From positions 62,001-126,000 of the forward strand of contig JAKQEK010000452.1 of NCBI GenBank assembly GCA_029558535.1: DNA of 64,000 nucleotides. The letters run 5' to 3'. Made by a program: the position numbers and the translations under genes. This document shows, piece by piece, positions 13,330-34,250 of this stretch. Position 1 is the first letter of the stretch. Every line of letters begins with the position of its first letter. Below the pieces are notes generated by a model that saw only the letters and a program-made list of their open reading frames with translations, did not search any database and was not told the DNA's origin. The DNA comes from Bacteroidota bacterium (lineage in GTDB: Bacteria; Bacteroidota; Bacteroidia; Bacteroidales; ML635J-15).

Positions 13330-13342
13330 CTCGATACTTTTA

Positions 13343-13840
13343 CTAATTGATGTGTTTCTTAATCTCTTCTATAATCTTTGCTGCATCAACCGGTTTTCTT
13401 ATAAAACCACAAACTGGGAACCAGTAAGTCTGTCCATCTTCACCTTTATAGTCTATACCTGCCGTTCCGTCTGAAATATTTTTAAGAAGAATAACTTGCA
13501 GATCTTTAAAATTTGGATCTTTTCTGTATTCTCTGGCCATTTCCTGAACGCTGGCTTTAGAAGTTACCAGAATATCAATTGAAGACTGAATCAGAAAAGG
13601 AATCTTTTTAAATTCGGGATTATTCAACATTGCTCTTGCCATATCAAAACCTTCGAAATGAGTTGTCATCATAACATCTAAAATTGCAAGATCAGGTTTT
13701 TCACTCCTCAATTTTTCAAGACCTTCTTCTTTACTTACTGCTGAGATAACTTCATAACCTTCTTTGGTTAAGATTGTTCTCAAAACTGTGATGACATCAA
13801 TGTCGTCATCAACTACCAAAATTCTTTTCCTTGTTTCCAT
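13343..13840 (-). CDS. Atypical single-domain response regulator with an insertion
   Basis: A 165-residue receiver with no output domain. VDDD, AILDVMM and a C-terminal FIRKPV supply the acidic pocket, phosphoacceptor and conserved Lys. Between them, after IPFLIQSS, there is an extra stretch of about 35-40 residues (EMAREYRKDPNFKDLQ, then DYKGEDGQTYWFPVCG) that an ordinary receiver of about 120 residues does not have. It is the first gene on the strand before hydCBA, so it may be co-transcribed. It is a candidate receiver for one of the nearby kinases, or may bind the hydrogenase itself. A possible -7 element on the minus strand is CAAAAATA at 13907-13914. Confidence 0.85.
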   Translation of the reverse strand: METRKRILVVDDDIDVITVLRTILTKEGYEVISAVSKEEGLEKLRSEKPDLAILDVMMTTHFEGFDMARAMLNNPEFKKIPFLIQSSIDILVTSKASVQEMAREYRKDPNFKDLQVILLKNISDGTAGIDYKGEDGQTYWFPVCGFIRKPVDAAKIIEEIKKHIN

Positions 13841-14225
13841 AATAGTATTTTTTAATTGTGAATACTCTTTTTAAAAATTTCATTGTGCGTTTTAAATCTT
13901 TCATTACAAAAATATTTTGAATATAAGAGCTGTAATAGAGAGAATAATCCTGATTTTAAAGGCAGTTATATATCGATTTTGAAAATAAAAACCAGTACTT
14001 TTACGCAATTTATATAGCATAAAAAAACAGAGTAATGTATATAAGAATCTATACAAATAATGTAAATAGTGCACAATTAAAAAATTGAATAGTCATGTGA
14101 ATAAAACAAATTCAACTCTGTAATTTGTGCCACAAAATGCTAAAGATCCATTCATTTGTGAAAAACAAAAAAAAAGAGGCAGAAAATTTTCCACCTCTAA
14201 AAAAAAACTAACATAAATCTCAAAT
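13841..14225. other. Intergenic region between the two hydrogenase operons
   Basis: No coding gene is visible in these 385 bases. They hold the terminator of the hydA2 operon at 14161-14198 and the upstream region of the receiver-hydCBA operon. A 13-base palindrome, TTTGTGCCACAAA, sits at 14124-14136, and a possible minus-strand -7 element at 13907-13914. The remainder is AT-rich with no further recognisable structure. Confidence 0.7.
14161..14198 (-). terminator. Terminator of the hydA2 operon
   Basis: On the minus strand a stem of up to 12 pairs (AGAGGTGG... with ...CTGCCTCT, 14175-14198) is followed directly by ten T and more T-rich sequence. It starts 28 bases past the hydA2 stop and is the strongest terminator in the hydrogenase region. 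Confidence 0.88.
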
Positions 14226-16016: not shown

Positions 16017-16035
16017 AATTTCATATTTAATTAGT

Positions 16036-17995: not shown

Positions 17996-18003
17996 TAATC
18001 TCT

Positions 18004-18095
18004 AGAGAGAACGGAACTGGTGTTCCATCCGGTCTTCAAAACCGGCAGCAGACGGATAAAACCGGCTGTGGCAGGTTCGATTCCTGCTCTCTCTG
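18004..18095 (+). tRNA. selC: tRNA-Sec (anticodon TCA)
   Basis: The sequence folds into a selenocysteine tRNA. The anticodon stem is CCGGT/ACCGG (18029-18033, 18041-18045) with loop CTTCAAA, anticodon TCA at 18036-18038. The D arm is GGAAC/GTTCC closing a four-base loop TGGT. The variable arm is long (CAGC..GCTG with inner CGG..CCG). The T arm is GCAGG-TTCGATT-CCTGC (18071-18087). The acceptor stem is seven clean pairs (18004-18010 with 18088-18094); an eighth is possible only as U18003-G18095. Bacterial tRNA-Sec usually has eight acceptor pairs and six D-stem pairs, so this one is slightly unusual. CCA is not encoded. It stands 195 bases before selA. Confidence 0.93.
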
Positions 18096-18251
18096 CTTTT
18101 ATCAATGGTACTATATAGCCTTTTCCTTCTCTTAACCTCCCTCCTTAGCCTTAGCCATTTTAAAATAATAACCACCTGGCAAACTAATTATAAAAAATTT
18201 CAGCTTAAAATTTAAATCCCTTTACAACTTTCCAGTTTTAGAAATTAATTT

Positions 18252-18270: not shown

Positions 18271-18294
18271 ATGAAAACTTATAATCGCATATGA
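18271..18294 (+). promoter_or_regulatory. Possible leader peptide ending in UGA at the selA start
   Basis: ATG AAA ACT TAT AAT CGC ATA TGA encodes a seven-residue peptide whose UGA stop overlaps the selA start codon (ATGA at 18291-18294). The overlap would allow translational coupling, and because the stop is UGA it could in principle respond to selenocysteyl-tRNA level. No ribosome binding site is obvious for it. It may be chance. Confidence 0.25.
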
Positions 18295-19718
18295 ATTACC
18301 CTAGCGGAGATTTTAAAAGTCTTCCGGCAGTTGATAAACTTTTGTGCAACAAAGAAGTCACAAAGTTAATCCTTTCATTTGGTAAGGATACAACTATTTA
18401 TGCAATCAGGGAATCAATCAGTTTTTTCAGAGAAAAATTAAAAAAAGGAGGCTCAGCCCCTACGGAAGATGAAATTCTAATTAAGATCAATGAGTTTATT
18501 TCAACTCTGACATGCCCCAATTTTAAAAAAGTTATAAATGCCACAGGCATAATTATAAACACAAATTTAGGCAGATCTCCATTCAGTAAAGAAATGTTGC
18601 TTGAAAGCTTTCAGAAATTGGAAGGGTATAATAATCTGGAATTTAATCTGAAAACAGGCGAAAGGGGTAGCCGAAATTCACATCCTGAAAAAATCTTAAA
18701 ATTCCTGACCGGTGCCGAAGACATTTTGGTTGTTAATAATGCTGCTGCTGCAGTTATGCTGTGTCTAAATACTTTTGCAAAAAGAAAAGAAGTATTAGTA
18801 TCGAGAGGCGAACTTGTCGAAATTGGCGGTTCGTTCAGAATTCCTGAGGTTATGGCAGCATCCGGTTGTAAAATGATAGAAGTCGGAACTACGAATAAAA
18901 CCAAAGTTTCCGACTACAGAAATGCTATTACAGATAAAACAAGATTATTATTTAAAGCACACAAGTCTAATTTCGTAATTAAAGGATTTACTGAAGAAGT
19001 AAGCATTCAGGAACTTGCCGTAATTGGTAAAGAATTCGATCTCCCTGTAATTTATGATCAGGGCTGTGGTTTACTAAAACGCATATCTCACCCGGCTTTC
19101 AAAGATGAAGCAAATGTCAAAGACGCATTGTTAAATGGAGCCGACATCGTTTGCTTTAGCGGCGATAAATTATTGGGAGGTCCGCAAGCCGGTATTATTG
19201 CGGGGAAAAAGATTTATATCGAAAAGCTAAAAAAGAATCAACTACTTAGAGCATTAAGAGTTTGTAAAACGACTCTTGCATTGATAGAAACCACTTGTTC
19301 GTATTATCTTAATGAAAAGGATTTGTTTAGTAAAAATTTGCTTTTCAAACTGATTTCTAAAAAACCGGACGAAATAAAACTTTCTGCGATAAAAATGGTA
19401 GAAATGCTTAAAAGGCATAAAATTATTGCAGAAGCAGTCCAAAATACAGTCCAAATTGGCGGAGGATCATTAACCGACAAGGAAATTCAAAGCTATGCCG
19501 TAAAACTCATACCTCCTGAAGTATCTAAAAAGACCAAAACAAAATTTGTCGAAGAATTGCATCACAAATTGATGAATCGTCATATTCCTATAATAGGAAT
19601 ATTAAAAAAGGGTGATTTGCTTTTCGATTTACTTACTGTTAATGATAATGACATTGAAGAGGTTGTTAATGCAGTTAGTGACACCTACAAGATTCTGAAT
19701 AACTACGAAGTTGAATGA
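18291..19718 (+). CDS. selA: SelA, L-seryl-tRNA(Sec) selenium transferase
   Basis: SelA is a PLP enzyme that converts seryl-tRNA(Sec) to selenocysteyl-tRNA(Sec) with selenophosphate. The protein is 475 residues, the usual length. Family features seen are the glycine/asparagine-rich substrate region (NATGIIINTNLGR), a PLP-binding core (VNNAAAAVMLCLN, EIGGSFRIPEVM) and the Lys Schiff-base motif FSGDKLLGGPQAG near residue 300. The ATG at 18291 is the first in frame and gives a normal N-terminus (MNYPSGDFKSLPAVDKLL). Its stop overlaps the selB ATG by 4 bases. The gene is 195 bases downstream of tRNA-Sec, so tRNA and enzymes are in one locus. Confidence 0.97.
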   Translation: MNYPSGDFKSLPAVDKLLCNKEVTKLILSFGKDTTIYAIRESISFFREKLKKGGSAPTEDEILIKINEFISTLTCPNFKKVINATGIIINTNLGRSPFSKEMLLESFQKLEGYNNLEFNLKTGERGSRNSHPEKILKFLTGAEDILVVNNAAAAVMLCLNTFAKRKEVLVSRGELVEIGGSFRIPEVMAASGCKMIEVGTTNKTKVSDYRNAITDKTRLLFKAHKSNFVIKGFTEEVSIQELAVIGKEFDLPVIYDQGCGLLKRISHPAFKDEANVKDALLNGADIVCFSGDKLLGGPQAGIIAGKKIYIEKLKKNQLLRALRVCKTTLALIETTCSYYLNEKDLFSKNLLFKLISKKPDEIKLSAIKMVEMLKRHKIIAEAVQNTVQIGGGSLTDKEIQSYAVKLIPPEVSKKTKTKFVEELHHKLMNRHIPIIGILKKGDLLFDLLTVNDNDIEEVVNAVSDTYKILNNYEVE

Positions 19719-21697
19719 AACATTTGATAATTGGCACAGCCGGGCATATTGATCATGGTAAAACGTCATTGATAAAATTATTGACAGGCGTTGATTGTGA
19801 CACTCACAAGGAAGAAAAGACAAGAGGAATCACTATTAATCTGGGATTTTCGCATCTTGAATTGCCTTCAGGGGAAAATGTAGGAATAATTGATGTGCCG
19901 GGACATAAAGATTTTATAAATAATATGATTGGTGGTGCATGTGGAATAGATATGGTATTGTTGGTCATAGCAGCAGATAGCGGAATCATGCCTCAAACCG
20001 TTGAACATATAAATATTATTAAATCACTGGGAATTAAGCATGGTGTTGTTGCATTAACCAAAATTGATCTGGTTGATGAGGAATTGATTGAAATTGCAAG
20101 TGATGAAATTTCCGAATATCTAAATAAAACTGAACTAAAAGACATCCCAATAGTTGGTATTTCGACTATTACCGGCATGGGTAAAGACAAATTATTAACC
20201 GCTATTGATAACACAATAAGAAGAATCGAAGAGAAAGATAAGGGAAATCTTTTTCGTATGTATATTGACAGAATTTTTACTATTAAAGGACATGGAAGCG
20301 TAGTTACAGGCTCTGTTACAAGTGGTTCTGTAAGCACCGGAGATGAAGTATTTCTTTTACCCGGCATAAAACAAAAATTAAAAATCCGATCAATCGAAAG
20401 ACACGGAATTGCTGTAAATGAAGTAGAAAGAGGTGATAGGGCAGCTATAAATCTTACAGGATTAAAAAATGAAGATTTCGAAAGAGGAATGCTACTTAGC
20501 AATAAAGAATTAGACTCAATAATGATAGTGGATGCTTATGTTAATTTATTTGAATCAGTTCCGTCACTTAATTTGTGGTCTAATGTAATAATCTTATCTG
20601 GCACTTATGAAACAACTGCCAGAATGCATTTGCTTAACAAAGATAATCTCGCAGAAGGTGAAGATGCAATTGTCCAACTTCATCTTAATAAACCGGGCAT
20701 TTTTATAAACAGAGATAAAATTATTATCAGAAATTCTTCTGACGACATAACACTTGGAGGCGGTTATATAATTGACTCATCTCCTTTGCACCACCGAAAA
20801 CGCACACCACAATTAGTTCAATCTCTGACAGAACTTTGTGTTAATATTCTTACAGATGACAGCTTGACTGAAAATATAAAATTGGTTTTAAACAAAGAAT
20901 TCAGACCTTTTAGTATTGAAGAAATTTGTGAATTATTACACGTAAATAAAGATGAAATTATTATTTCAATCAATAAAAATCACAATCAATTTTTAGATTA
21001 TAAAACAGAGGAGTCGTTTATTTTGATTTCAAATAATTTTGAAGAGAATTATAAAACTAAAATTATTAAAAACATTAAAGATCAACACAGCAATAACAAT
21101 ATTTTTGCTGAAGGGCTCGAAACAGGTGAAATAGCCGGAAAACTTGGATTATCAAAGTCCAAAACCGGAAAATTATATCTGGAATTATTATTGGAGAAAT
21201 TGAAAAGTGAAAACACATTAGATAACTATAAAAAAACATGGATAATTAAAGGTCATAAACCTGTTATTGACAAAAAAACAGAAAGCGAAATACAATGGCT
21301 GCAAGAACAAATTGCAGGTTGCAAAGACGAAAAACCCGTGTTATCAGAAATTGAAGAAGCAGCTGTTCAAAATGGAATAAATAAAGCAAAAATAAAAACC
21401 TATCTTTCTTATCTTGCAAACTCAGGAAAAGTCAAAATTTATAACAGCGATTTTATTTATTCTGAAATATTCATCAAAAATCGGGACAATCTACTTAAAT
21501 CATTATCAACAAAACCAAAGGGAATAAACATTCCGGAATTTAAAGAAATTATTCCGGGGACAAAGAAATTCCGTGCCTTGATAGGTGAAATAATGGAATT
21601 TGAAAAGCTAATTCAGTACACTAAAGATTCGAACAACGAAACAACAATTATAATTACTCAAAAAGGAAAGGAATTTATAAATGCAGGTTTATCTTGA
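19715..21697 (+). CDS. selB: SelB, selenocysteine-specific elongation factor
   Basis: SelB delivers selenocysteyl-tRNA(Sec) to the ribosome at UGA codons marked by a SECIS hairpin. The 660-residue protein starts with an EF-Tu-like GTPase (GTAGHIDHGKTSLIK, DVPGHKDFINNMI, TKIDLVD), then two beta-barrel domains and a C-terminal half (residues about 390-660) with the winged-helix repeats that bind the SECIS RNA. Its start overlaps selA by 4 bases and its end overlaps the aminotransferase gene by 17 bases, so translation is tightly coupled. The expected target in this window is fdhA at 27679-30387. Confidence 0.97.
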   Translation: MKHLIIGTAGHIDHGKTSLIKLLTGVDCDTHKEEKTRGITINLGFSHLELPSGENVGIIDVPGHKDFINNMIGGACGIDMVLLVIAADSGIMPQTVEHINIIKSLGIKHGVVALTKIDLVDEELIEIASDEISEYLNKTELKDIPIVGISTITGMGKDKLLTAIDNTIRRIEEKDKGNLFRMYIDRIFTIKGHGSVVTGSVTSGSVSTGDEVFLLPGIKQKLKIRSIERHGIAVNEVERGDRAAINLTGLKNEDFERGMLLSNKELDSIMIVDAYVNLFESVPSLNLWSNVIILSGTYETTARMHLLNKDNLAEGEDAIVQLHLNKPGIFINRDKIIIRNSSDDITLGGGYIIDSSPLHHRKRTPQLVQSLTELCVNILTDDSLTENIKLVLNKEFRPFSIEEICELLHVNKDEIIISINKNHNQFLDYKTEESFILISNNFEENYKTKIIKNIKDQHSNNNIFAEGLETGEIAGKLGLSKSKTGKLYLELLLEKLKSENTLDNYKKTWIIKGHKPVIDKKTESEIQWLQEQIAGCKDEKPVLSEIEEAAVQNGINKAKIKTYLSYLANSGKVKIYNSDFIYSEIFIKNRDNLLKSLSTKPKGINIPEFKEIIPGTKKFRALIGEIMEFEKLIQYTKDSNNETTIIITQKGKEFINAGLS

Positions 21698-22829
21698 TAA
21701 CACAGCCACAAGTTGGCCCAAGCCAAACACGGTAGTTGAATCAATCGCAGATTATCTTAAAAATTATGGAGGTAGTCCGGGGCGTTCAGGACATGCGTTT
21801 GCTTTAAAAGCTGCCCGTATAGTTTTTGAAACACGAGAATTATTAGCGGAGTTTTTTAATGCAGATTCCTCCGATAGAGTAATATTTACTTCCAATGCTA
21901 CAAATGCTAGTAATATTGCATTTAAAGGCATTCTTAAAAAAGGCGACCATGTTATTACCAGCCATATGGAACATAACTCAACAATCCGTCCATTGAGGAA
22001 TCTTGAGAAAGAAGGAATAATTGAGTTAACAATTATTGATTGTGATAATAATGGAAACATTGATTTTGATTTACTAAAAAGCAGTTTCAGACAAAATACA
22101 AAATTAGTCTCTACAATTCATGGCTCAAATATCATTGGAATAACTTTACCTATTGATAAAATTGGAGCATTGTGTAAATCCAAAAATGTTTTGTATCATG
22201 TTGATGCAGCTCAAACAGCAGGGTTTTTACCTATTGATGTTCAAAAAAACAGTATTGATATTTTAACTTTTACAGGACATAAAAAACTATTAGGGCCATC
22301 AGGTACAGGTGGATTAATTTTAAGAAATAATGTTGAAATTGATACCCTTATTCACGGTGGCTCGGGGAGTAAGTCAGAATCCGAAACACATCCCGATTTT
22401 TATCCCGACAAATTAGAAGCCGGCACTCCTAACACAGTTGGAATCACAGGGCTTAAAGCAGGTATTGAATTTATTTTAAAGCAAGGACAAAAAAATATAA
22501 TAAATCACAGCAGACAGATAACAGACTATTTTCTGGATTCATTGATTGACATTGACGAAATAAAAATTCACGGTCCAGGAAAAGAAAAAAACATTTTACC
22601 GGTAATATCTGTTACAAGTAATTTTTTCCCACCTGACAAAATTGCAAGTATTCTGGACAAGGAATATGGAATAATGACCAGAGCAGGTTTAATGTGTAGC
22701 CCGTTAGGACACAAAGCATTAGGAACATTTCCTCAAGGGACATTAAGATTTAGTCCGGGATTTTTCACATCAAAAAAAGATATTGATTATACTATAAATT
22801 CATTAAAACAAATTTTTAAAAACAAATAA
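21681..22829 (+). CDS. Class V aminotransferase, cysteine desulfurase / selenocysteine lyase type
   Basis: This is a 382-residue PLP enzyme of the NifS/SufS fold. The PLP Lys is in TGHKKLLGPSGTGG, HVDAAQTAG supplies the cofactor Asp and SHMEHNS the stacking His region. A candidate catalytic Cys is in RAGLMCSPLGH near residue 332. It resembles the cysteine desulfurase-like subfamily found beside selD and yedF in selenium-using bacteria, so its likely role is to mobilise selenium from selenocysteine or handle a persulfide/perselenide for SelD. That substrate is inferred from context. It starts inside the selB 3' end (17-base overlap) and is followed at 1 base by yedF. Confidence 0.9.
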   Translation: MQVYLDNTATSWPKPNTVVESIADYLKNYGGSPGRSGHAFALKAARIVFETRELLAEFFNADSSDRVIFTSNATNASNIAFKGILKKGDHVITSHMEHNSTIRPLRNLEKEGIIELTIIDCDNNGNIDFDLLKSSFRQNTKLVSTIHGSNIIGITLPIDKIGALCKSKNVLYHVDAAQTAGFLPIDVQKNSIDILTFTGHKKLLGPSGTGGLILRNNVEIDTLIHGGSGSKSESETHPDFYPDKLEAGTPNTVGITGLKAGIEFILKQGQKNIINHSRQITDYFLDSLIDIDEIKIHGPGKEKNILPVISVTSNFFPPDKIASILDKEYGIMTRAGLMCSPLGHKALGTFPQGTLRFSPGFFTSKKDIDYTINSLKQIFKNK

Positions 22830-22830: not shown

Positions 22831-23439
22831 ATGAAAACGGTTGATGCAAAAGGGAAATTATGCCCAGTACCACTAATAATGACAAAAAAGGCCTTAGCCG
22901 AATTGGGGCAAGACGAAACTTTAGAAATTCTTATTGATAACGAAACATCAATGACTAATGTTTGTCATTTTTTAAAAGAGTATAAAATGCAGGTTGTAAC
23001 CGAGAAACAAGGAAATATTTTCAGATTACTTGTAAAAAAAAGCGGTAACATACCCGAAAATGCTCCTGTAGAAGACTTTTGCAGAATTAATACTCCCAAT
23101 TTGTCGGACTACGTAATTACTGTAAAAAGAAACCGAATGGGAGACGGAGCTGAAGAACTAGGTCAGATCCTAATAAAAGCATGTATAAATACAATACCTG
23201 ATCTTGATTTAAAGCCAAAAAAGGTAATTTTTCTTAACTCAGGGATATTTATGTGTTTAAAAGATTCACCAGTTTTGGAGTCATTAAAAAAGTTGGAAAA
23301 CCTGGGCATTGAAATTTTAGTTTGCGGAACTTGTTTGGATTATTACAATAAAAAAGATCAGTTAGCTGCAGGAAGAATTTCAAACATGTACGATATTTTG
23401 AATAGCATGGCAGAAGCCTCCAAGGTAGTTTTTGCATAA
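22831..23439 (+). CDS. yedF: YedF, selenium-metabolism TusA/DsrE-like protein
   Basis: A 202-residue two-domain protein. Residues 1-70 are a TusA/SirA domain with the catalytic CPxP motif (DAKGKLCPVPLIMTKKAL). The C-terminal part (about 90-200) is a DsrE-like domain with KVIFLNSG and ILVCGTCLDYY, holding two cysteines that may take part in sulfur or selenium relay. This architecture is the YedF family, which co-occurs with selD. Its position between the desulfurase-like enzyme and selD fits a carrier that hands selenium (or persulfide) toward selenophosphate synthesis. The exact chemistry of the family is not settled. Confidence 0.9.
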   Translation: MKTVDAKGKLCPVPLIMTKKALAELGQDETLEILIDNETSMTNVCHFLKEYKMQVVTEKQGNIFRLLVKKSGNIPENAPVEDFCRINTPNLSDYVITVKRNRMGDGAEELGQILIKACINTIPDLDLKPKKVIFLNSGIFMCLKDSPVLESLKKLENLGIEILVCGTCLDYYNKKDQLAAGRISNMYDILNSMAEASKVVFA

Positions 23440-23465: not shown

Positions 23466-23693
23466 ATGCGAAATAAAGTTCTAACGTTCCAGTCAACACA
23501 CCATGTTTTGAAAGCAGAAAAAATTCTGATAGAAGCAGGTTTTAAATTTGATATTATCCCAACACCAAAAAATATATCAAGCGATTGCGGAATGTCAATA
23601 AGGCTAGATTCAGAATCTTCAGACATGAGTTTTTTATCTGATGTACTTACTTATAATAATATCATTTTTCAAATATACGATTACAAAATATGA
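23466..23693 (+). CDS. DUF3343 protein, putative Se/S carrier-like
   Basis: A 75-residue protein (start ATG at 23466) with the DUF3343 pattern: an N-terminal QSTHHVLKAEKILIEAG strand-helix, then IIPTPKNISSDCGMSIRL with one conserved Cys. DUF3343 proteins occur with selD/yedF clusters and are thought to carry or deliver selenium or sulfur, by association only. Its stop overlaps the selD ATG by 4 bases, so it is part of the selA-selD transcript. Confidence 0.85.
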   Translation: MRNKVLTFQSTHHVLKAEKILIEAGFKFDIIPTPKNISSDCGMSIRLDSESSDMSFLSDVLTYNNIIFQIYDYKI

Positions 23694-24733
23694 AAGATTT
23701 TGACCTTTTAAGCACAGTAGAATACGGAGGTTGTTCGGCAAAACTTCCTGCAGCAAAACTTAGTGAAGCATTAAGTGGATTGACTTCTACCCCACATCCT
23801 GATTTACTAGTAAATACAGATACTCACGATGATGCCGGGGTTTTTAAAATTAGTGATGAACTTGCTCTTATCCAAACGACAGATTTCTTCCCTCCTATTT
23901 GTTCCGACCCTTATGAATTCGGACAAATTGCAGCTGCTAACGCTTTAAGTGATGTTTATGCTATGGGTGGACGCGTTTTAAGTGCTTTAAATATCATTAC
24001 TTTTCCTGCTAATGTCTCTCTCGATATTTTAAAAGAGATTCTTAGAGGCGGAATAGATAAGCTAATAGAAGCTGGGGGTGTAATGATGGGTGGGCACACT
24101 ATTGTTGATGAAGTGCCAAAATATGGTATGGCTGTTACAGGAACTGTTAATCCAAGCAAAATAATCAAAAATTCTGAAGCAAAACCGGGAGATGTCCTCA
24201 TTCTGACTAAGCCAATTGGAGCAGGTATTATTATGGCAGGAAAAAGAATCAATGAAATTGATGATGAAAAGTACAATACTGTTCTTAGAAGCATGAAACA
24301 ACTCAATAAAGGCGGAGCAGAAATAATGCAAAAATACGACGTTAAATGTGCTACTGACATAACCGGATTCGGCTTGGCAGGTCATGCCCTAAAAATAGCT
24401 TTAGCAAGTAATGTAAGTTTAAAAATATATCCCGAAAAAGTTCCATTGTTTGATGGAACACTTGAATTAGCTCAATTAGGTTGTTTACCGGGAGCTTGTT
24501 TTAGGAATATGGAATATATTACTAACTATTCTGAATTTGATCCCAAAATCTCTGTAGATTATAAAATGATTATCTGTGATGCGCAAACTTCAGGAGGTTT
24601 GTTAATGTGTTGCGACCAAAATAAAACAGAAAATATATTAAAAGATTTATGGCATTTTGGATTTAAGCATTCTAAAATTATAGGATGTGTTCAAGAGAAT
24701 ACAAATAAAAAATTACAATTTATAAGTGAGTAA
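23690..24733 (+). CDS. selD: SelD, selenide-water dikinase
   Basis: SelD makes selenophosphate from selenide and ATP, the donor for SelA. The 347-residue protein shows the C-x2-K active-site pair in YGGCSAKLP (Cys14 or so, Lys three residues on), the Asp-rich ATP/metal motif VNTDTHDDAGVF, and the AIRS-type core (QIAAANALSDVYAMGG, DITGFGLAGHA, DAQTSGGL). The active-site residue is Cys, encoded by TGT, not Sec. The gene overlaps the DUF3343 gene by 4 bases and ends the compact selA-B-lyase-yedF-DUF3343-selD operon. Confidence 0.97.
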   Translation: MKDFDLLSTVEYGGCSAKLPAAKLSEALSGLTSTPHPDLLVNTDTHDDAGVFKISDELALIQTTDFFPPICSDPYEFGQIAAANALSDVYAMGGRVLSALNIITFPANVSLDILKEILRGGIDKLIEAGGVMMGGHTIVDEVPKYGMAVTGTVNPSKIIKNSEAKPGDVLILTKPIGAGIIMAGKRINEIDDEKYNTVLRSMKQLNKGGAEIMQKYDVKCATDITGFGLAGHALKIALASNVSLKIYPEKVPLFDGTLELAQLGCLPGACFRNMEYITNYSEFDPKISVDYKMIICDAQTSGGLLMCCDQNKTENILKDLWHFGFKHSKIIGCVQENTNKKLQFISE

Positions 24734-25083: not shown

Positions 25084-26361
25084 ATGACTGATTACAGAGA
25101 AATGTGGTCCGGTTTAGGACTTGATTTACAAACTCATGATGCCGTACTTGAGATTGTAGGAAAAATGTATGGAGAAGTTTATATGTCTCAAAAAAACAGA
25201 CCAAAGGGAATGGAGTATTTTGATTTTGTGATGAGTGAAATTCATGGTCTTAGAATCAAAGAACTTATGGATGCCAAGGCAGAAGGAAGAAAAATAATTG
25301 GAACATTTTGTGTTTTTGTCCCTGAAGAGCTTATTTTAGCTGTTAACGGAATTAGTGTTGGGCTTTGCGCCGGAGCTGAATTAGCTTTTGATGCAGCTGA
25401 ACAATTTATACCACGAAACACGTGTGCTTTAATAAAATCGGCTTTTGGTTTTAAACTAGCAAAAGTCTGTCCTTATATTGAATCTGCAGACCTTATTGTA
25501 GGTGAAAACACATGTGATGGAAAGAAAAAAGCTTATGAATCATATAAAGACCTCGTTGGGAATTTGTATGTCATGGATTTACCACAAGTAAAATCATCAG
25601 AAGGGAAAGTGCTTTTAAAAGCAGAGTATCAAAAATTTGCTAAAAAACTTGAAGAGTTATCAGGGAATAAAATTACAAAAGAATCATTGCAAAAAGGTAT
25701 TGAAATCGTTAATAGCAAAAGGAAAGCAATCAAACGTCTTTCTGATTTACGAACAGCAAATCCAACTCCAATTTCCGGGCTAGACGCTTTATTAATTAAT
25801 CAAGTTTACTTTTATGACGACCCTATACGATTTACAAACTCTGTTAATGCATTATGTGATGAACTTGAATTGAGAATTAAAACAGGTGTCGGAGTATTTT
25901 CTAATAAAACTCCACGAATTTTAGTTTCTGGCTGTCCAATGGCTGTACCCAATTGGAAAATACCTCAAATAATTGAAACTTCAAATGCAACTATTGTTGG
26001 TGAAGAGATGTGTACCGGAGAAAGAGGTACAAGAAATTTTGTCGCCAACGAAAACCTATCTACTGAAGAAATGATAAATGCTATTGTAGATAGATATTTT
26101 AACATTGATTGTGCTATTTTCACACCGAATAATGAAAGATATGAAAATATTAAACAAATGGCTAAACAATACAAAGCAGATGGAGTTATTTACTATTCAT
26201 TACAGTTTTGTCAACCATACCAAAATGAATCTATTTCGATCGAGAAAATGTTAGAAAAAGAAGGAATCCCGGTTTTAAACATTGACACGGATTATAGTTC
26301 TGAAGATATTGGACAACTTAAAACAAGAATAGAAGCTTTTATTGAAAGGATAAAATCTTAA
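25084..26361 (+). CDS. Double-cubane-cluster-type anaerobic reductase (HgdB/DCCP-like)
   Basis: A 425-residue member of the 2-hydroxyacyl-CoA dehydratase/benzoyl-CoA reductase/double-cubane cluster superfamily. Signature segments are TFCVFVPEELILAVNG (about 78-93), GENTCDGKKKAYE (about 140), SGCPM (about 282), EEMCTGERGTRN (about 305) and LQFCQPY (about 380). Their cysteines are the candidate ligands of the iron-sulfur cluster(s). The single-subunit form with NTCDGKKK resembles double-cubane proteins rather than two-subunit dehydratases. It is paired with its ATP-dependent activase just downstream. Such pairs reduce difficult substrates using ATP-driven electrons; the substrate here is unknown. 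Placement between selD and selenium-dependent fdhA suggests, but does not prove, a selenium or formate-related role. Confidence 0.88.
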   Translation: MTDYREMWSGLGLDLQTHDAVLEIVGKMYGEVYMSQKNRPKGMEYFDFVMSEIHGLRIKELMDAKAEGRKIIGTFCVFVPEELILAVNGISVGLCAGAELAFDAAEQFIPRNTCALIKSAFGFKLAKVCPYIESADLIVGENTCDGKKKAYESYKDLVGNLYVMDLPQVKSSEGKVLLKAEYQKFAKKLEELSGNKITKESLQKGIEIVNSKRKAIKRLSDLRTANPTPISGLDALLINQVYFYDDPIRFTNSVNALCDELELRIKTGVGVFSNKTPRILVSGCPMAVPNWKIPQIIETSNATIVGEEMCTGERGTRNFVANENLSTEEMINAIVDRYFNIDCAIFTPNNERYENIKQMAKQYKADGVIYYSLQFCQPYQNESISIEKMLEKEGIPVLNIDTDYSSEDIGQLKTRIEAFIERIKS

Positions 26362-26374
26362 TAAATAATAATTA

Positions 26375-26402
26375 AAGTCGATGGGCTCAGTCCCATCGAC
26401 TT
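26375..26402 (+). promoter_or_regulatory. Strong hairpin between the reductase and activase genes
   Basis: An 11-bp perfect inverted repeat (AAGTCGATGGG at 26375-26385 and CCCATCGACTT at 26392-26402) with a six-base loop lies 13 bases past the reductase stop and 17 bases before the activase ATG. The downstream sequence is ATTTAATAAC, a poor U run, so it more likely acts as a partial terminator or an RNA-stability element that sets the ratio of the two proteins. Confidence 0.65.
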
Positions 26403-26419
26403 ATTTAATAACAAATTAT

Positions 26420-27157
26420 ATGATATCAGCAGGAATAGATATAGGTTCAAGAACAATAAAATTAGTCATATTATCAGAAAACATTATTACCTTCGAACAA
26501 GTAGTTGATAACTCTTTTAACACAATGGAAATTTGCAACAAATTGTTAGATGGTAAAAATTATGATAAAATTACTTCAACAGGATATGGGAGACATTTAT
26601 TTGCAGACTATTATGAATGTGACGTAATAAGTGAAATTAAAGCATTTTCTCTCGGAATAAGAAGTGTATTTCCCAACGTGAGAACCATTTTAGATATCGG
26701 AGGGCAGGACACAAAAGCAATTTCACTAGATGAACAAGGCAAAGTTAAAAAATTTGAAATGAATGATAAATGTGCTGCCGGAACAGGACGTTTCTTAGAA
26801 ATCATGGCTATGGCTTTGAGATATAATCTTGATCAGTTTAGTACCGCGGCATTAAGTGTTAATGAAAAAGAAAGCATTAGTAGTATGTGCACAGTTTTTG
26901 CCGAATCCGAAGTAGTGAGCATGATTGGAAAAGGTTATGACAGGAATAAAATTTCCAGAGGTATACATTTCTCTATCATAAATCGCGCTATTAATATGCT
27001 TAAAAAAGTGAATATAGAAGATGACATTGCTTTTGTTGGTGGAGTTGCGAATAATATTGCAATAAAAGTATTACTATCAGAAATTTTAGGAAAGAAAATC
27101 TATGTCCCGAATAATCCGCAAACAATTGGGGCAATTGGCTGTGCCATATATAACTAA
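26420..27157 (+). CDS. ATP-dependent activase of the double-cubane/dehydratase type (BadF/BcrA/HgdC family)
   Basis: A 245-residue actin-fold ATPase that hydrolyses ATP to push an electron into its partner iron-sulfur enzyme. Features are the N-terminal phosphate loop AGIDIGSRTIKLVIL, ILDIGGQDTKAI, NDKCAAGTGRFLE (first cluster Cys) and SMCTVFAESEVV (second Cys), so the homodimer can hold the usual bridging [4Fe-4S] cluster, then FVGGVANN. I start at the ATG at 26420 (MISAGIDIGS); an ATG at 26381 is in frame but lies inside the hairpin and would add 13 non-family residues. It is probably co-transcribed with the reductase 58 bases upstream. Confidence 0.92.
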   Translation: MISAGIDIGSRTIKLVILSENIITFEQVVDNSFNTMEICNKLLDGKNYDKITSTGYGRHLFADYYECDVISEIKAFSLGIRSVFPNVRTILDIGGQDTKAISLDEQGKVKKFEMNDKCAAGTGRFLEIMAMALRYNLDQFSTAALSVNEKESISSMCTVFAESEVVSMIGKGYDRNKISRGIHFSIINRAINMLKKVNIEDDIAFVGGVANNIAIKVLLSEILGKKIYVPNNPQTIGAIGCAIYN

Positions 27158-27678: not shown

Positions 27679-30387
27679 ATGGACAACAAAATCAATTTAA
27701 CAATTGACGGGCAAGTATATACGGCCAATCCAGGACAGACCGTATTACAAGTTGCCCGTGAAAATGGAATTTACATTCCTAGTCTATGTTATCATCCCCG
27801 TACAGGCAAAGCCGGAAAATGTAGAGCTTGTCTTGTTGAGGTTGAAGGAATACGTGGACTAAAAGAAAGCTGTGCTCTTGAAATAAAAGAGAACATGGTA
27901 GTTAATACCAGAACAGAACGTGTAATGGAAGTACGCAAAATGATTGTTGAACTTCATTTAGCAAATGGCGAGCATAATTGTATTGCCTGCGAAAAGAACG
28001 GACATTGCGAACTTCAGGACATGGCATACCATTGCGGTATTGAAAGGCCTCATTTCCCTGTTGAACATATAACTGCGGAATTAGACACTTCATCTGAAGG
28101 CATTATTCGTGATTCAAACAAATGTATTCAGTGTGGCAGATGTATTCGCGCTTGCAACCATAATGTAATGCACGAAGTTCTTGATTTTGGATGGCGTTCT
28201 GGTGATATGAAAGTAATTTGCGATGATGACAAACCTATGGGAGAATCATCATGCGTACAGTGTGGAGAATGTGTTCAGGTTTGTCCGGTTGGGGCACTCA
28301 CTTTTAAAAATGCAAAAGGAGTTGCTCAATTTAAGGAACTTAAGAAAACTAAAGTTATATGCACATATTGTGGTGTTGGATGTTCGATTGACATGTACAC
28401 CAAAGATAATAAATATGTGTACTCAATGGCAACTGAAGATAATTGGGAACAATTACCTAACAAAGGAATGCTTTGCGTAAAAGGTCGCTTTGGTTTTGAC
28501 TTTTTAAATCGTGAAGACAGATTAAATACTCCTCTTATTCGTAAAAATGGCGAATTAGTAGAAGCAAGCTGGGATGAAGCTTTGGATTTGGTTGCAAGTA
28601 AATTTTCTGAAATTAAAGAAAAACATGGAGCCGGTTCTTTGGGATTTTTCACCTCTGCCAGAGTATCGAATGAAGAAAACTATGCAGTAATGAGATTCGC
28701 CAGAGGAGTTATTGGCACAAATAATATTGACCATTGCGCCCGGCTCTGACACAGCTCTACGGTTGCGGGACTGGCAACCACATTAGGTTCAGGTGCTATG
28801 ACAAACAGCATGCAGGAAGCTGACAAAGGAAATGTTATTTTGGTAATTGGTACAAATACTACATGGAATCACCCCGTTTTTGGCGGTATGATTAAAAAAG
28901 CTGTAAAAGAAAAGGGAATCAAACTTATTGTAGCCGATCCACGAGATATAGGATTAGCAAAATTAGCTGATATTCATCTGACTCAAAATCCGGGTTCTGA
29001 TACTGCTTTATTAATGGGTATGCAGCATATTATTATTAAGAACAATTGGCATAATAAGGAATTCATTGCTGAAAGAACTGAAGGTTGGGATGAATATGTA
29101 AAAAGTCTTGAGTTTTATACTCCTGAAAAAGTATCAGAATTATGCGGAATATCTGTTGAAGACCTAAATGCAACAGCAAAATTATATTCAACAGCAGGTC
29201 GTGGTGCTATATACTATGCTATGGGTATTACACAACATTCTCATGGTGTGGATAATGTAATGGCTTGTGCTTGCTTACAGATGATACTTGGTAATTATGG
29301 CGTTCCCGGCACAGGTGTAAATCCTCTCCGCGGACAGAACAACGTTCAAGGTGCTTGCGATATGGGTGGATTACCAAACGTGTTTACAGCATATCAACCG
29401 GTAATTAACGAAGATGCTCGCAAGAAGTTTGCCGATGCATGGGGCGTTAAATACGAATTTTTGGATGACAAAGTTGGTCAAACTGTTACAACAATGGTTG
29501 AACATGCCGGTGACTCAATAAAATGTCTATATATCGTAGGTGAAAATCCAATGATGTCAGATCCAAATCAAAATCATGCAAGACATCAATTTGAAAAACT
29601 TGATTTCATCGTAGTACAGGATATCTTCCTTACAGAAACTGCTCAAATTGCTGACGTAGTTTTACCGGCTGCTGCTTTTGCTGAGAAATACGGTACTTTT
29701 ACAAATACCGAAAGAAGGGTTCAGTATTCATTCCAAGCATTAAATCCTCCTGTTGGAGCAAAATACGATCATGAAATAGTAGCTGAAATCGCTAAGCGTA
29801 TGGGTTGTAAAGACTTCCCATCAACAGTTGAAGATCTGTATGAAGAAATGAGAAAACTCACTCCTTCTTATGCTGGTATTTCTTATGAGAGAATAATGAA
29901 TAAAGAAGGATTAAGATGGCCATGTCCAACCGAAGATCATCCTGGTACTCCTATTCTTCATGGTGCTAAATTCTCAAGAGGTCTTGGTTTATTAAAAGCC
30001 ATTACATACAGACCTCCGGTTGAATATGCAAATAATGAATATCCGTTAACATTAACAACAGGACGCCTTCTTCAACATTATCATACAGGTTCTATGACCA
30101 GAAGGTCTAAAGTACTTCACGGAATTGTTCCATCTGGTTATGTTGAGATAAACACAGTTGACGCTGCAAAATTGAAAATTAAAAACGGCGAAACTGTTAA
30201 GGTTTCATCATTGCGTGGTAATATAAACATAACTGCAAAAGTTACCGAGAAAATTAAAAAAGGTGTAGTATTTATTCCTTTCCACTTTGCGGAAACTGCT
30301 GCAAATATTTTAACAAATGATGCTTATGATCCGGTAGCAAAAATTCCGGAATATAAAGTATGTGCTGTTAAAATTGAAAAGATTTAG
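27679..30387 (+). CDS. fdhA: Selenocysteine-containing formate dehydrogenase catalytic subunit
   Basis: One gene read through an in-frame UGA at 28747-28749, giving 902 residues with Sec357 in the classical motif CARLUHSSTV. It oxidises formate or reduces CO2 at a molybdenum/tungsten bis-pterin site. Domains in order: NuoG-like [2Fe-2S] (C37, C48, C51, C65), a further Cys cluster (C101, C104, C110), two [4Fe-4S] (C149-C159, C192-C202), the proximal [4Fe-4S] of the enzyme core (C228, C231, C235, C266), the pterin-binding core and a C-terminal molydopterin-binding domain (LTTGRLLQHYHTGSMTRRS). Both parts on either side of the UGA are fully conserved and in the same frame, which rules out decay. 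The next gene supplies the NAD(H) module. The whole selenium locus upstream serves this codon. Confidence 0.97.
28747..28779 (+). promoter_or_regulatory. Sec UGA codon and SECIS hairpin of fdhA
   Basis: The UGA at 28747-28749 is followed after 11 bases by GGTTGC (28761-28766), a seven-base G-rich loop GGGACTG and GCAACC (28774-28779): a perfect six-pair hairpin. Stem sequence, spacing and G-rich loop closely resemble the E. coli fdhF SECIS. It is within the coding sequence and should be bound by SelB. Confidence 0.92.
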
Positions 30388-30416: not shown

Positions 30417-32147
30417 ATGATGAAAGAAGAATTAAAAAATAAAATACAGAAATTGATGCAGAAATACCCTAAAAAGGAATCTGCTTTAATGCCTGCCTTA
30501 ACTCTTGTTCAGAAAGCTTATGATAACAATCTGACTAAAGAACTTGTTGAAGAAATAGCAGATTTTATAGGAGTATCTTATTCAAGAGCTTATGGTGTTG
30601 CAACTTATTATTCGATGTTTAACATTAATAAAGTAGTTGGCAAATATCATTTGCAGGTTGACACAAATATTCCGGCAACATTAATGGGTGCTGTTGAGAT
30701 TTTCAATTATTTGAGTAAAAAGCTCGGCATCAAACACGGCGAAACTACTCCTGATGGTTTATTTACTCTAAGTCACGTTGAATGTCTTGCTTCCTGTGGT
30801 ACCTGCCCGGTTATTCAGGTAAATGACAAGTATTACGAAATGATGACTCCTGAAAAGGTTGACATGCTTATTGATTCTCTTCGTAAGGGTATCATGCCAG
30901 AAATTCCTGTAAAATACAACTTCGGAACAAAATGTAATGTTTTGTTAAAAAATGTAGAAATAAAAGATTCTGAAACTATTGCGGTTTATAAGAAAAATGG
31001 TGGATATTCTGTTTTGCAAAAAGCTTTAAAAATGTCACCTGAGCAAATAATTGCTGAAGTAAAAGATTCACAATTACGTGGTCGTGGTGGAGCTGGTTTC
31101 CCGACAGGTGTAAAATGGGGTTTCTTACCTAAAAATATTGATAAACCTGTATATTTAATATGTAATGCAGACGAAGGTGAACCCGGAACTTTTAAAGATC
31201 GCCAGATTATGACTTATGATCCACACCTTTTAATAGAAGGTATGGCTATTTCGGCATATGCGTTAAATTGCAAGACTGCTTTTATATACATCAGAGGTGA
31301 ATTCAGCTGGATTGCTGATATTCTTGAAAAAGCAATTGAAGAAGCAAAAGATGACGGACAGTTAAAAAATCTTGATATAATTGTACATCAAGGCGCAGGT
31401 ACCTACATCTGTGGTGAAGAAACTGCCTTAATTGAATCTATTGAAGGAAAACGCGGACTTCCAAGAATGAAACCACCATTCCCTGCAGTAGAAGGACTTT
31501 ATGGATGTCCGACCATAGTAAATAATGTAGAAACTCTTGCAAGTGTTCCATTTATTATTGACAAAGGAGCTTCTGCATTTAAGGCATGGGGATCTCCTGC
31601 CGGATACGGATTTAAACTATTTGGAGTTTCCGGTGCAGTAAATAAACCCGGAGTGTATGAATGTCCTATGGGAATATCTTATAAAGAGCTTATCGAAATG
31701 GCCGGAGGATATAGCGAAAAAATTAAGGGAGTTATTGTTGGTGGATTATCTGTACCAATTTTAACAACTGAAGAACTGGAAAAAGGTGATGGCATGAAAA
31801 TGGATTATGAATCCTGTGCCGAATACGGTACTTCTCTAGGTTCAGGAGGCGTTATGGTTATCAGCGAGAAATTCTCTATTCCGGAAATTTCAGCTAGAAC
31901 CATACAATTCTACAACCATGAGTCTTGTGGTCAATGTACACCATGCCGCATGGGTTCAGGAATGATAAAACTTCTTCTCAATAAGATAGTTTCTGGTAAT
32001 GGAGAAAAAGGCGATATAGACAAAATCATCTGGTTCTGTGACAATATTAAAGGTAATACATTGTGTCCTACAGGTGAAGCATACTCGGTACCGGTAAAAA
32101 CAATGGTTACTAAATTCAGAAAAGATTTTGAAGCTTTGATTAAATAG
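30417..32147 (+). CDS. Fused NuoE-NuoF NAD(H)-linked subunit of formate dehydrogenase
   Basis: A 576-residue partner of FdhA, 29 bases downstream, that binds FMN and NAD(H). The NuoE-like half (1-150) has lost the first pair of [2Fe-2S] ligands (VDTNIPATLMG at 81-91) while three cysteines remain in the second region (C123, C127, C130 in ECLASCGTCP). The NuoF half has GRGGAGFPTGVKWGF, CNADEGEPGTF, and [4Fe-4S] motif ESCGQCTPC with the distal Cys in NTLCPTG. Layout and length match the hydrogenase 2 fusion at 16036-17748; no C-terminal ferredoxin domain. So the enzyme is most simply an NAD-dependent formate dehydrogenase; coupling to ferredoxin cannot be read from the sequence. Confidence 0.93.
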   Translation: MMKEELKNKIQKLMQKYPKKESALMPALTLVQKAYDNNLTKELVEEIADFIGVSYSRAYGVATYYSMFNINKVVGKYHLQVDTNIPATLMGAVEIFNYLSKKLGIKHGETTPDGLFTLSHVECLASCGTCPVIQVNDKYYEMMTPEKVDMLIDSLRKGIMPEIPVKYNFGTKCNVLLKNVEIKDSETIAVYKKNGGYSVLQKALKMSPEQIIAEVKDSQLRGRGGAGFPTGVKWGFLPKNIDKPVYLICNADEGEPGTFKDRQIMTYDPHLLIEGMAISAYALNCKTAFIYIRGEFSWIADILEKAIEEAKDDGQLKNLDIIVHQGAGTYICGEETALIESIEGKRGLPRMKPPFPAVEGLYGCPTIVNNVETLASVPFIIDKGASAFKAWGSPAGYGFKLFGVSGAVNKPGVYECPMGISYKELIEMAGGYSEKIKGVIVGGLSVPILTTEELEKGDGMKMDYESCAEYGTSLGSGGVMVISEKFSIPEISARTIQFYNHESCGQCTPCRMGSGMIKLLLNKIVSGNGEKGDIDKIIWFCDNIKGNTLCPTGEAYSVPVKTMVTKFRKDFEALIK

Positions 32148-32206: not shown

Positions 32207-33028
32207 ATGGCAAACAAACCTTGTGAAATTGTACAGCTTGCTATTGGTGCTGGACAATACAAATCAAAACTTGATTTGAAAAATTTATTGTTGAGAGGAT
32301 TTATGGCTGGTTTATTTATTGCGGTTGGAGGAGCTTTGGCAACAGTCTGCTCTACAGGTATTGAAACAGCAGGTATCAAACAACTGGTTTTAGGATCGGT
32401 CTTCCCGGTAGGACTTATCGCTATTGTCCTAACAGGAATGTCATTGTTTACAGGAGACACTATGCTTCTTCCTATGGCTGCAATGCATAAAAAAATCACC
32501 TGGACAAAAGTATTTTATGTTTGGCTGATAGTTTATATCGCTAACTTTGTTGGTTCTATCTTCTGGGCTTATCTTATGAACGTTGGTCCATTTGCAAAAC
32601 TTGATCCTGCAACAGGAGCTCAAACTTTAACTGCTTTTGGAGAAAGTGCACTTAAAATTGCTGAAGCTAAAGTTTTAGGTTACAAAGCTGCCGGCTTTAC
32701 AGGTTTATGGTCTGCTTTTATGAAGGGTATTGCATGTAACTTATTAGTTAATACTGCTATTCTTCTTGCGTTTTCAGCAAAAAATATGATTGGAAAATTC
32801 TTTGGAATATGGTTCCCAATCATGGCTTTCGTTTCTTCAGGATTTGAGCACAGCGTGGCTAATATGTACTTCATTCCTGCAGGTATCTTTAATGGTGCCA
32901 AAGTTAGTTGGGGCGATTTCTTAATTTATAACCTGACTCCAGTTACCTTAGGTAATATTGTTGGTGGTTTGGTATTTATAGGTGTTGTTTACTACACTTG
33001 TTACAAGAAAGAACTTACAACCGAATAA
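32207..33028 (+). CDS. Formate/nitrite (FNT) family channel, probable formate transporter
   Basis: A 273-residue integral membrane protein with six hydrophobic segments and FNT family marks: LTGMSLFTGDT after the second helix, KGIACNLLVN, and SGFEHSVANMYFIPAG. FNT proteins form pentameric channels for formate and related monovalent acids. Placement straight after the formate dehydrogenase genes (59 bases) makes formate the likely substrate. It has an unusually good Shine-Dalgarno (AAAGGAG, 8-10 bases before the ATG), rare in this phylum, and a strong terminator follows at 33048-33080, so it ends the fdh operon. Confidence 0.93.
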   Translation: MANKPCEIVQLAIGAGQYKSKLDLKNLLLRGFMAGLFIAVGGALATVCSTGIETAGIKQLVLGSVFPVGLIAIVLTGMSLFTGDTMLLPMAAMHKKITWTKVFYVWLIVYIANFVGSIFWAYLMNVGPFAKLDPATGAQTLTAFGESALKIAEAKVLGYKAAGFTGLWSAFMKGIACNLLVNTAILLAFSAKNMIGKFFGIWFPIMAFVSSGFEHSVANMYFIPAGIFNGAKVSWGDFLIYNLTPVTLGNIVGGLVFIGVVYYTCYKKELTTE

Positions 33029-33080: not shown

Positions 33081-33113
33081 ATTTAATATTGTATAAAATT
33101 GCAATGGTATCTC

Positions 33114-34250
33114 ATGACGGAACAAAAAAATCTTATAATAATAGGTTCATCAGGAAGAAATGCGGGAAAAACTGAATTTGCTTGCCGTTTAATATCTGAC
33201 AATCAAAATAGATTTCCAGTCTATGGCGTTAAAATAAAAAGAATTTGTACAAATAAAGATGAGTGTGATAACCTCTGTAAGAATTGTCTGCTGGGAAAAC
33301 TGCCTATACCAGGTTTTGAGATATCCGAAGAAAATGATAAAACAACAGGAAAAGACACTTCAAGAATGCTTTTAGCAGGAGCAAAAAAGGTATATTTTAT
33401 TAAAAGTGAAAAAGACAAATTAGAACTTGCCTTTTTGGAGTTAATGAAAATTATTCCAAAAAATGCTATTGTTGTTTGTGAGTCAAATTATTTGAGACAG
33501 TATATTAAACCGGGACTATTTGTTCTGATAAGAAACAATGAAGATGAAAATTTAAAGGAAAGTTATGTCTCTACTCTAAAATTTGCAGATAAAATTGTAA
33601 ATTTTAAAAATTCTAATTGGGATTTTCAACCTTCAAGAATATCTTTTCAAGATAACGAATGGACAATAAAAGAACCTGCAACAGCCATTATCTTGGCAGG
33701 TGGCAAAAGTTCACGAATGGATGGCCTTGATAAAAGTTTACTTCCGATTAATGGCATACCATTAATATTACATATTGTAAAACAACTTGAAAAACACTTT
33801 GATAAAATCATTATAGGATCAAATGATTCACAAAAATTTCAGTTTCTAAATTTACCCGTTATCCCAGACTTAGAACCCTGCAAAGGTCCACTTATGGGGA
33901 TACTGTCATGCTTGACAGCATCCGAAACTGAAATAAATTTTATTACAGCATGCGACATCCCTATTGTCAATACAGAAATAATTCATAAAATGATGTGTAA
34001 TGTTGATGAGTATGATATGGTTATTCCGGTATCTGATAAAAATATGTACGAACCTTTATTTGCAATTTATAAAAAATCTACTTTACCGACGATAACAACT
34101 TTGTTAGATAATGATGTAAGAAAAATAACAGAAATACTACAATACTTAAAAGTTAAAAAATTTGAATTTTCGCCAGGATTATGGTATCAAAATTTAAATA
34201 AAAAAACAGATTATTTGAATTTCATCAATAATTCATCAAATATGTCTTAA
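33114..34250 (+). CDS. MobB-MobA fusion, molybdopterin guanine dinucleotide synthesis
   Basis: About 378 residues. The N-terminal half is a MobB-like P-loop protein (IIGSSGRNAGKTEFACRLI) with an added Cys-rich insert (CDNLCKNCLLG, near 40-50). The C-terminal half is MobA, the guanylyltransferase that attaches GMP to molybdopterin: AIILAGGKSSRMDGLDKSLL, then PLMGILSCL and TACDIPI. I use the ATG at 33114 (MTEQKN); an upstream TTG at 33099 is in frame but weaker. The formate dehydrogenase just upstream needs bis-MGD, so the two are functionally linked even though a terminator separates them. Confidence 0.9.
   Translation: MTEQKNLIIIGSSGRNAGKTEFACRLISDNQNRFPVYGVKIKRICTNKDECDNLCKNCLLGKLPIPGFEISEENDKTTGKDTSRMLLAGAKKVYFIKSEKDKLELAFLELMKIIPKNAIVVCESNYLRQYIKPGLFVLIRNNEDENLKESYVSTLKFADKIVNFKNSNWDFQPSRISFQDNEWTIKEPATAIILAGGKSSRMDGLDKSLLPINGIPLILHIVKQLEKHFDKIIIGSNDSQKFQFLNLPVIPDLEPCKGPLMGILSCLTASETEINFITACDIPIVNTEIIHKMMCNVDEYDMVIPVSDKNMYEPLFAIYKKSTLPTITTLLDNDVRKITEILQYLKVKKFEFSPGLWYQNLNKKTDYLNFINNSSNMS

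Follow-up and report, generated by a model that had tools for sequence, protein, structure and literature searches.

Does an in-frame UGA in a Bacteroidales formate dehydrogenase gene encode selenocysteine (Sec), and is this enzyme all that the Sec-decoding genes beside it serve? The question is raised by fdhA in a stretch of 64,000 nucleotides, hereafter the window, to whose positions coordinates refer unless another locus is named. Our data make it very probable that 27679-30387 encodes a molybdenum- or tungsten-dependent formate dehydrogenase with Sec as active-site residue 357, decoded by means of the adjacent sel cassette and a hairpin that follows the UGA. We also consider it likely that Sec decoding in Bacteroidales chiefly serves an extracellular selenoproteome, with at least three families secreted by the type IX secretion system (T9SS) and encoded beside the sel genes or dependent on them, fdhA being one client. 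The Sec formate dehydrogenase itself is ordinary; the genomic setting is the new part. The features at the centre of the question are these:

27679-30387, forward strand: fdhA, Sec formate dehydrogenase alpha subunit, 902 residues with predicted U357 (TIGR01591, translation)
28747-28749, forward strand: in-frame UGA, predicted Sec 357 (sequence; same codon in nine aligned close relatives)
28761-28779, forward strand: hairpin of the Sec insertion sequence (SECIS) type, 6 base pairs with a 7-nucleotide loop (folding, codon conservation, pairing across relatives)

The fdhA frame contains a single internal TGA, in the motif HCARL-U-HSSTV, and is otherwise open throughout; in a list of open reading frames (ORFs) made with translation table 11 it appears as two, 27679-28749 and 28798-30387. 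The product matches TIGR01591 over the catalytic domain (residues 226-899; 825.9 bits, cut-off 666.25), the molybdopterin domain PF00384 covers residues 281-707 and spans the UGA site, and the N-terminal part (residues 1-220) is NuoG-like and rich in iron-sulfur (FeS) motifs. U357-H358 aligns with C-H of 7vw6 and with X-H of the solved F420 formate dehydrogenase 9t1s_L, in which we take the residue printed X to be Sec.

Relatives of the gene keep the codon. Genomes and loci are labelled below by G and L numbers, G000 being the window's own genome; nearly all genomes compared are metagenome bins. A genome scan for fdhA gave 46 loci, 39 of which were set aside, their match being confined to approximately residues 1-226; the seven full-length relatives (L008-L014, 76-96% identity) all have TGA at the site of codon 357. 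In an order-wide sample of 393 Bacteroidales genomes, 47 carry a formate dehydrogenase (E ≤ 1e-150), nine of them with one internal TGA, and UGA is found in 8 of the 13 carriers with tRNA-Sec versus 1 of the 34 without. At 75% identity or more the proportion is seven of eight genomes, own genome included. Loci with identical fdhA were dropped (L062, L063, L065 and L066, equal to L009, L013, L010 and L011, respectively), as was L243, part of a contig identical to L008, before counting. In Perlabentimonas gracilis M08_MB (L012), tRNA-Sec, selA, selB, desulfurase, yedF, selD and UGA fdhA stand in one locus.

The hairpin has the sequence GGUUGC, loop GGGACUG, GCAACC, and its stem begins 11 nucleotides after the UGA. 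Ten distinct sequences were aligned (the window and nine relatives at ≥ 75% identity; the distant L069 and L071 were left out of the codon test), and UGA is kept in all. The encoded residue is invariant in 480 columns, and in 15 of these a single codon is used throughout: TGA itself, hairpin codons 362-366 and nine others. With the TGA column set aside, 14 of 479 columns are single-codon, including all five hairpin codons (hypergeometric p ~1e-8, for codons that lie wholly inside a hairpin named beforehand, were picked after the codon table had been viewed, and come from related sequences); codons 361 and 367, which flank the hairpin core, are variable. All 54 base-pair cells are kept across nine distinct rows, in L009 and L013 one stem pair is A-U in place of G-C, a double change, and in slid structures used as control 13-67% of cells pair. 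It is this conservation, and not folding alone, by which the predicted hairpin exceeds chance. It presumably resembles the SECIS of E. coli fdhF.

Upstream of fdhA lies the cassette that would decode it:

18003-18096, forward strand: tRNA-Sec (selC), anticodon UCA (ARAGORN; Rfam RF01852, 62 bits, gathering score 47)
18291-19718, forward strand: selA (TIGR00474, 507.3 bits, cut-off 267.9)
19715-21697, forward strand: selB, Sec-specific elongation factor, 660 residues (TIGR00475, 315.8 bits, cut-off 242.25)
21681-22829, forward strand: cysteine desulfurase family protein, likely for selenium supply (TIGR01977, 452.4 bits, cut-off 377)
22831-23439, forward strand: yedF, TusA/DsrE-type selenium metabolism protein (TIGR03527, 204.7 bits, cut-off 110)
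23690-24733, forward strand: selD, selenophosphate synthetase (TIGR00476, 367.2 bits, cut-off 125)

The Sec-decoding gene set is complete, with selA, selB, selC and selD all above curated cut-offs; the tRNA ends by two methods fall at 18003/18004 and 18095/18096. The cysteine desulfurase scores 381 bits with the selenocysteine lyase SclA model, under its cut-off of 525. SelD could be ruled out as a selenoprotein, having Cys in its N-terminal GGCSAK stretch. In L014, yedF matches as two adjoining pieces (3933-4471). In the mechanism we propose, the cysteine desulfurase and YedF would feed SelD, and SelA would use the selenophosphate from SelD to turn Ser-tRNA(Sec) into Sec-tRNA(Sec); SelB would carry the latter to the ribosome, bind the hairpin at 28761-28779 and decode the UGA at 28747. 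A first-pass annotation of this DNA had proposed the in-frame UGA within CARL-U-HSSTV, the 6-base-pair hairpin, a complete Sec system formed by the nearby tRNA-Sec, selA, selB and selD, and a gene that automatic callers would split in two, and each of these was recovered here.

How common is Sec decoding in the order? Passages of a 2006 survey (PMC1794560) and of a 2015 survey (PMC5322559) describe Bacteroidetes as being without it. We found tRNA-Sec at 53.4 bits or more, a line placed at a gap that reaches down to 51.9 bits, in about 41 of the 393 genomes, a minority trait, in keeping with the first-pass view that Sec decoding is uncommon. The Rfam gathering score was rejected for this census: it is reached in 98 of 393 genomes, and matches in its lower range seem to resemble other long-armed tRNAs. 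When the line was checked against selA in the 47 formate dehydrogenase genomes, selA was over its cut-off in 13 of 13 above the line and in 0 of 34 below. selB was over its cut-off in 4 of 61 genomes (60 relatives and the own genome). On the strength of these genomes, the published statements that Sec decoding is absent from Bacteroidetes no longer hold.

Formate dehydrogenase is a minority client among these genomes, its UGA form being present in 8 of 41. A UGA gene of the redoxin, CxxU or HCUG families described below occurs in 25 (24 for the secreted kinds, after removal of G244), and in 22 without any Sec formate dehydrogenase. Counting every kind of UGA client found, 30 of the 41 have one or more and 11 have none that is known. 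Three genomes (G063, G264 and G184) have UGA redoxin, HCUG or formate dehydrogenase genes and no tRNA-Sec above the line, which suggests incomplete bins or misplaced contigs.

The three families came to light around the sel genes of 11 loci, from G003, G009 and nine further genomes that lack a close formate dehydrogenase. Five of these loci (L142, L143, L144, L146 and L150) contain long frames that hold a single TGA and a probable redox motif, and the families are a UxxC redoxin, a CxxU protein and an 'HCUG' protein. Search alignments A2 and A3 (two rows each) and the single HCUG query were chosen for a UGA near sel genes, so these rows and the query are not independent support. A redoxin match with exactly one TGA occurs in 21 of 43 Sec genomes (the 41 plus G003 and G009), each with at least one match in which TGA stands as the first Cys of CxxC, and in 2 of 60 control genomes (G063 and G001) hand-picked from those under the tRNA-Sec line or under the cut-off for selB. 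One of these two, G001, is itself a Sec genome with a broken assembly: the selB search found none over the cut-off in it, and its contig identical to L008 carries the 3' end of selB, desulfurase, yedF, selD and UGA fdhA. At E ≤ 1e-25 across the 393 genomes, redoxin genes have TGA in 13 of the 18 matching Sec genomes versus 2 of 39 others (G063 and G264). Of 56 loci inspected, 52 showed the CxxC motif; its first position is TGA in 22 of them and a Cys codon in 30.

The own genome has a redoxin gene of this kind on another contig:

L201 (G000 contig C287), 1089-3200: predicted UGA redoxin, 703 residues, UGA at codon 58; redoxin, PKD repeats and sorting domain in this order

Its C-terminus matches the PF18962 sorting domain (47.9 bits, cut-off 27, residues 627-701), and homologues are at L151-L162, L202 and L203. 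Among 16 congeneric homologues, UGA is found in four (G000, G001, G003 and G009) and Cys in 12, and in none of the 12 congeners with Cys does selB pass the cut-off. Downstream of the UGA, GCGTCTRTCCCGACG is common to the four UGA genes but not to the 12 Cys genes. Two congeners, G003 and G009, have selA, selB and the UGA redoxin, and show no Sec formate dehydrogenase at E ≤ 1e-100; the formate dehydrogenase of G003 is of the Cys type (43% identity) and G009 has none at this threshold. We applied to the redoxins, in our own implementation, a SECIS rule from the literature (a hairpin, G at the loop start, SECIS distance). No hairpin satisfying it was found in L170, the search locus of the L201 gene, and the rule did not distinguish UGA from Cys redoxins (mean -1.95 against -2.59). 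A general folding score gave mean z -0.77 for the 22 UGA versus +0.31 for the 30 Cys genes, a modest difference, stated without a significance test. The CxxU family has no match in the own genome, and of its six HCUG matches the five that were listed contain no stop. By these predictions, the window's cassette serves at least two clients, formate dehydrogenase and the UGA redoxin.

In the CxxU family there are, at E ≤ 1e-30, 16 matches (L189-L200, L221-L224) in 12 of 393 genomes, each with exactly one TGA, and all 12 genomes are among the 41 with tRNA-Sec (Fisher p 3e-13). No Cys form was seen among the 16 strong matches; weaker homologues (≤ 66 bits) have no stop. In 9 of the 12 genomes a member shares a contig with tRNA-Sec and lies no more than 10 kb from it; in 8 the distance is at most 2 kb. 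A hairpin of the form GGU.YUG...CAR.ACC follows the UGA. Over 15 of the 16 sequences, pairing is kept in 89% of 120 cells and three pairs show a double change, levels reached by 7 of 500 and 22 of 500 shuffles, respectively; 54% of cells pair when the structure is slid by one. L224, the sixteenth, has its UGA in place and was excluded from the counts of hairpins and sorting domains. The HCUG search of 47 genomes gave five best matches, query included (L251-L255, with the gene at L142:5261-8803), in each of which a single TGA lies in the motif HCUGQPP or NCUGQPP; among the matches listed, the weaker ones (≤ 49% identity) have no TGA. These are long surface proteins of the PKD/SprB type, whose genes in G411 and G417 share a contig with tRNA-Sec, and the one scanned with Pfam contains PKD, SprB and P-domains.

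What the three families have in common are the marks of secretion. The T9SS type A sorting domain (TIGR04183) was detected in 20 of 21 full-length UGA redoxins and in all 15 CxxU proteins scanned, PKD repeats in 13 of the 21 UGA redoxins scanned and a type B sorting domain in the one HCUG protein scanned, and by eye the N-termini are signal peptide-like. Four UGA UxxC redoxins of G244 (L259, L260 and L261) look by eye like thiol-disulfide oxidoreductases; they were removed from the secreted tally because their C-termini have no visible sorting domain. NCBIfam selenoprotein models gave no match to the UGA families at E ≤ 0.01. The table passages of a 2026 review of prokaryotic selenoproteomes (PMC13188914) contain no signal peptide/T9SS architecture, and the words 'bacteroid', 'sorting' and 'secreted' were not found in its main text. 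Nor were 'T9SS', 'secretion' and 'sorting' found in passages of the deep-Sep paper (PMC12013277), and two papers that join selenoprotein or selenocysteine with T9SS (PMC13055991, PMC12016528) were judged unrelated. The secreted UGA families were found described neither in NCBIfam nor in the passages of open-access literature covered by our searches. Across the order, they look like the commoner clients of the predicted Sec machinery.

Could the UGA of fdhA be something other than a Sec codon? A standard ORF list yields exactly the two proteins, of 356 and 529 residues, that a true stop would leave if the gene were not simply a pseudogene. This is scarcely credible: ten distinct sequences share the UGA at this codon, each with an open frame before and after it, the split would cut PF00384 in two, and the hairpin codons are under extra constraint. 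A frame open through one TGA would also be expected if UGA were read as Trp or Cys by general recoding or a suppressor. Among 43 ORFs accepted as genes in the window (fdhA entered once, not as two pieces), the stop codon is TAA in 28, TAG in 10 and TGA in 5; past each TGA another in-frame stop follows after 0-9 codons, and TGG occurs 198 times. TGA functions as a stop here, which rules out genetic code 4 and, together with the dedicated selA/selB/selC/selD set and an active-site codon that is TGA or a Cys codon in 40 of 40 sequences of the tree described below, makes Trp or Cys recoding very improbable. Outside window genes, a filter for TGA frames (at least 25 codons before and 15 after the TGA) left six short ones (≤ 49 codons before, ≤ 62 after), dismissed by eye.

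The Sec reading of codon 357 has points against it as well. By folding alone, a check proposed in the first-pass annotation, the hairpin is no better than shuffled sequence (46 of 200 as good, z -0.71), and the shuffle control of the fdhA stem is moderate (12 of 500 reach the paired cells and 220 of 500 the pairs with double change). In G184 a UGA formate dehydrogenase (49% identity) occurs with neither selA nor a tRNA-Sec above the line, perhaps through an incomplete bin. The window's own assembly is fragmented, with 513 contigs and 88% completeness. In favour of Sec at residue 357, the recommended search of related genomes for the U357 core finds UGA kept in nine close relatives, and the contrary finding named beforehand, Cys without sel genes, occurs only in distant formate dehydrogenases (≤ 51% identity). 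A separate matter is whether the cassette has any other use. That sel genes and fdhA travel together, with formate dehydrogenase as sole client, would fit their close linkage in several relatives and the same linkage in Proteobacteria, as given in passages of the 2006 survey (PMC1794560). This we consider very unlikely, since a UGA redoxin is present elsewhere in the own genome, the congeners G003 and G009 have selA and selB with no Sec formate dehydrogenase, and the same lack goes with a UGA redoxin, CxxU or HCUG gene in 22 of 41 tRNA-Sec genomes. The earlier description of a cassette 'with its target' is upheld for formate dehydrogenase as a target, but not as the sole one.

With Sec as the preferred reading of codon 357, a relative in which the codon has changed deserves attention. 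The formate dehydrogenase of G395 (75% identity) has TGT (Cys) at the Sec codon, and on the same 8.4-kb contig (C161, L131) the gene stands beside tRNA-Sec and a selA with an internal in-frame TAA. A 40-sequence tree groups G395 and the ten close Sec enzymes in a single clade (support 100/100; placement within the clade lacks resolution), and L069, the next row outside that clade, is Sec too. Because tRNA-Sec and the stop-interrupted selA adjoin fdhA, we read the Cys form as loss of Sec and not as refutation, and G395 apparently represents an ongoing loss of Sec decoding, as judged from a metagenome bin of 75% completeness in which the selA stop could be a sequence error.

Genes on the other side of fdhA hint at how the enzyme would be connected to metabolism:

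30417-32147, forward strand: NuoE-NuoF fusion, likely partner of formate dehydrogenase linked to flavin mononucleotide and nicotinamide adenine dinucleotide (NAD) (TIGR01958, NF010120)
32207-33028, forward strand: formate/nitrite transporter family protein, FocA-like (PF01226, 260.8 bits, cut-off 34.6)
33099-34250, forward strand: protein with a MobA-type molybdenum cofactor guanylyltransferase domain (residues ~194-372; best E 2e-42)

The NuoEF fusion exceeds the cut-offs of TIGR01958 (153.2 bits, cut-off 142.4, residues 9-155) and NF010120 (443.5 bits, cut-off 389) and is under that of TIGR01959 (519.6 bits, cut-off 558.65); nuoEF follows fdhA in all seven of L008-L014. The FocA-like protein is under the cut-off of NCBIfam TIGR00790 (223.1 bits, cut-off 232.3), and the models listed for the MobA-domain protein are all under theirs. 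A homologue of the latter lies downstream of fdhA-nuoEF in five of the same seven loci, the others being L008, where the contig ends, and L011. The formate dehydrogenase is probably NAD-linked: FocA would move formate, and the FeS-rich N-terminal part (residues 1-220) would pass its electrons to the NuoEF fusion and then to NAD+, the likely acceptor.

Between selD and fdhA (25084-27157) the window has a double-cubane-cluster reductase with its activase. The pair also follows selD in L137 (G057). In L008, with an FdhA 96% identical to that of the window, it does not occur between selD and fdhA. A link of the pair to selenium metabolism is possible. Adjoining the cassette on its other side, on the minus strand (7276-17748), are two group A6 [FeFe] hydrogenases with NuoE/NuoF-type partners, in a run that also encodes a histidine kinase and a response regulator. 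This run might serve formate/hydrogen interconversion with its own regulation.

The Sec genes described here form a full set, stand close together and are conserved, and roughly one in ten of the sampled genomes of the order has the trait. If its secreted clients are as we propose, T9SS would be a route that places selenocysteine outside the cell. If the secreted UGA families are real, bacterial selenium would serve surface-sorted redox proteins and not only cytoplasmic enzymes, and annotators would gain a concrete rule, such genes being cut at the UGA in plain ORF lists. G395 may show loss of Sec in progress, with a Cys codon in fdhA, an interrupted selA and tRNA-Sec remaining.

How does this system compare with known ones? 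The window enzyme is like other Sec formate dehydrogenases (TIGR01591, 9t1s) in its catalytic domain and, compared with 9t1s, also in the place of Sec before His. It differs from 9t1s and from E. coli FDH-H (1aa6) by the added NuoG-like FeS N-terminal part and the NuoEF fusion partner, both of which are found as in 7vw6, 7e5z and 6tg9, which we take to be NAD-linked enzymes; 7vw6 in turn differs in having Cys at the Sec position. As in the selABC-fdhA clusters of Proteobacteria (passages of PMC1794560), sel genes stand beside fdhA. Unlike in those clusters, tRNA-Sec, selA, selB, cysteine desulfurase, yedF and selD of the window all run in one direction, and G003 (L134) and G187 (L143) retain the sel set, and the stretches examined around it contain no fdhA. 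The UGA redoxins share a thioredoxin-fold domain with UxxC with the Prx-like and redoxin UxxC selenoproteins in the table passages of the 2026 review (PMC13188914), and, compared with the proteins in those passages, they mostly add a signal peptide-like N-terminus, a T9SS type A sorting domain and PKD repeats.

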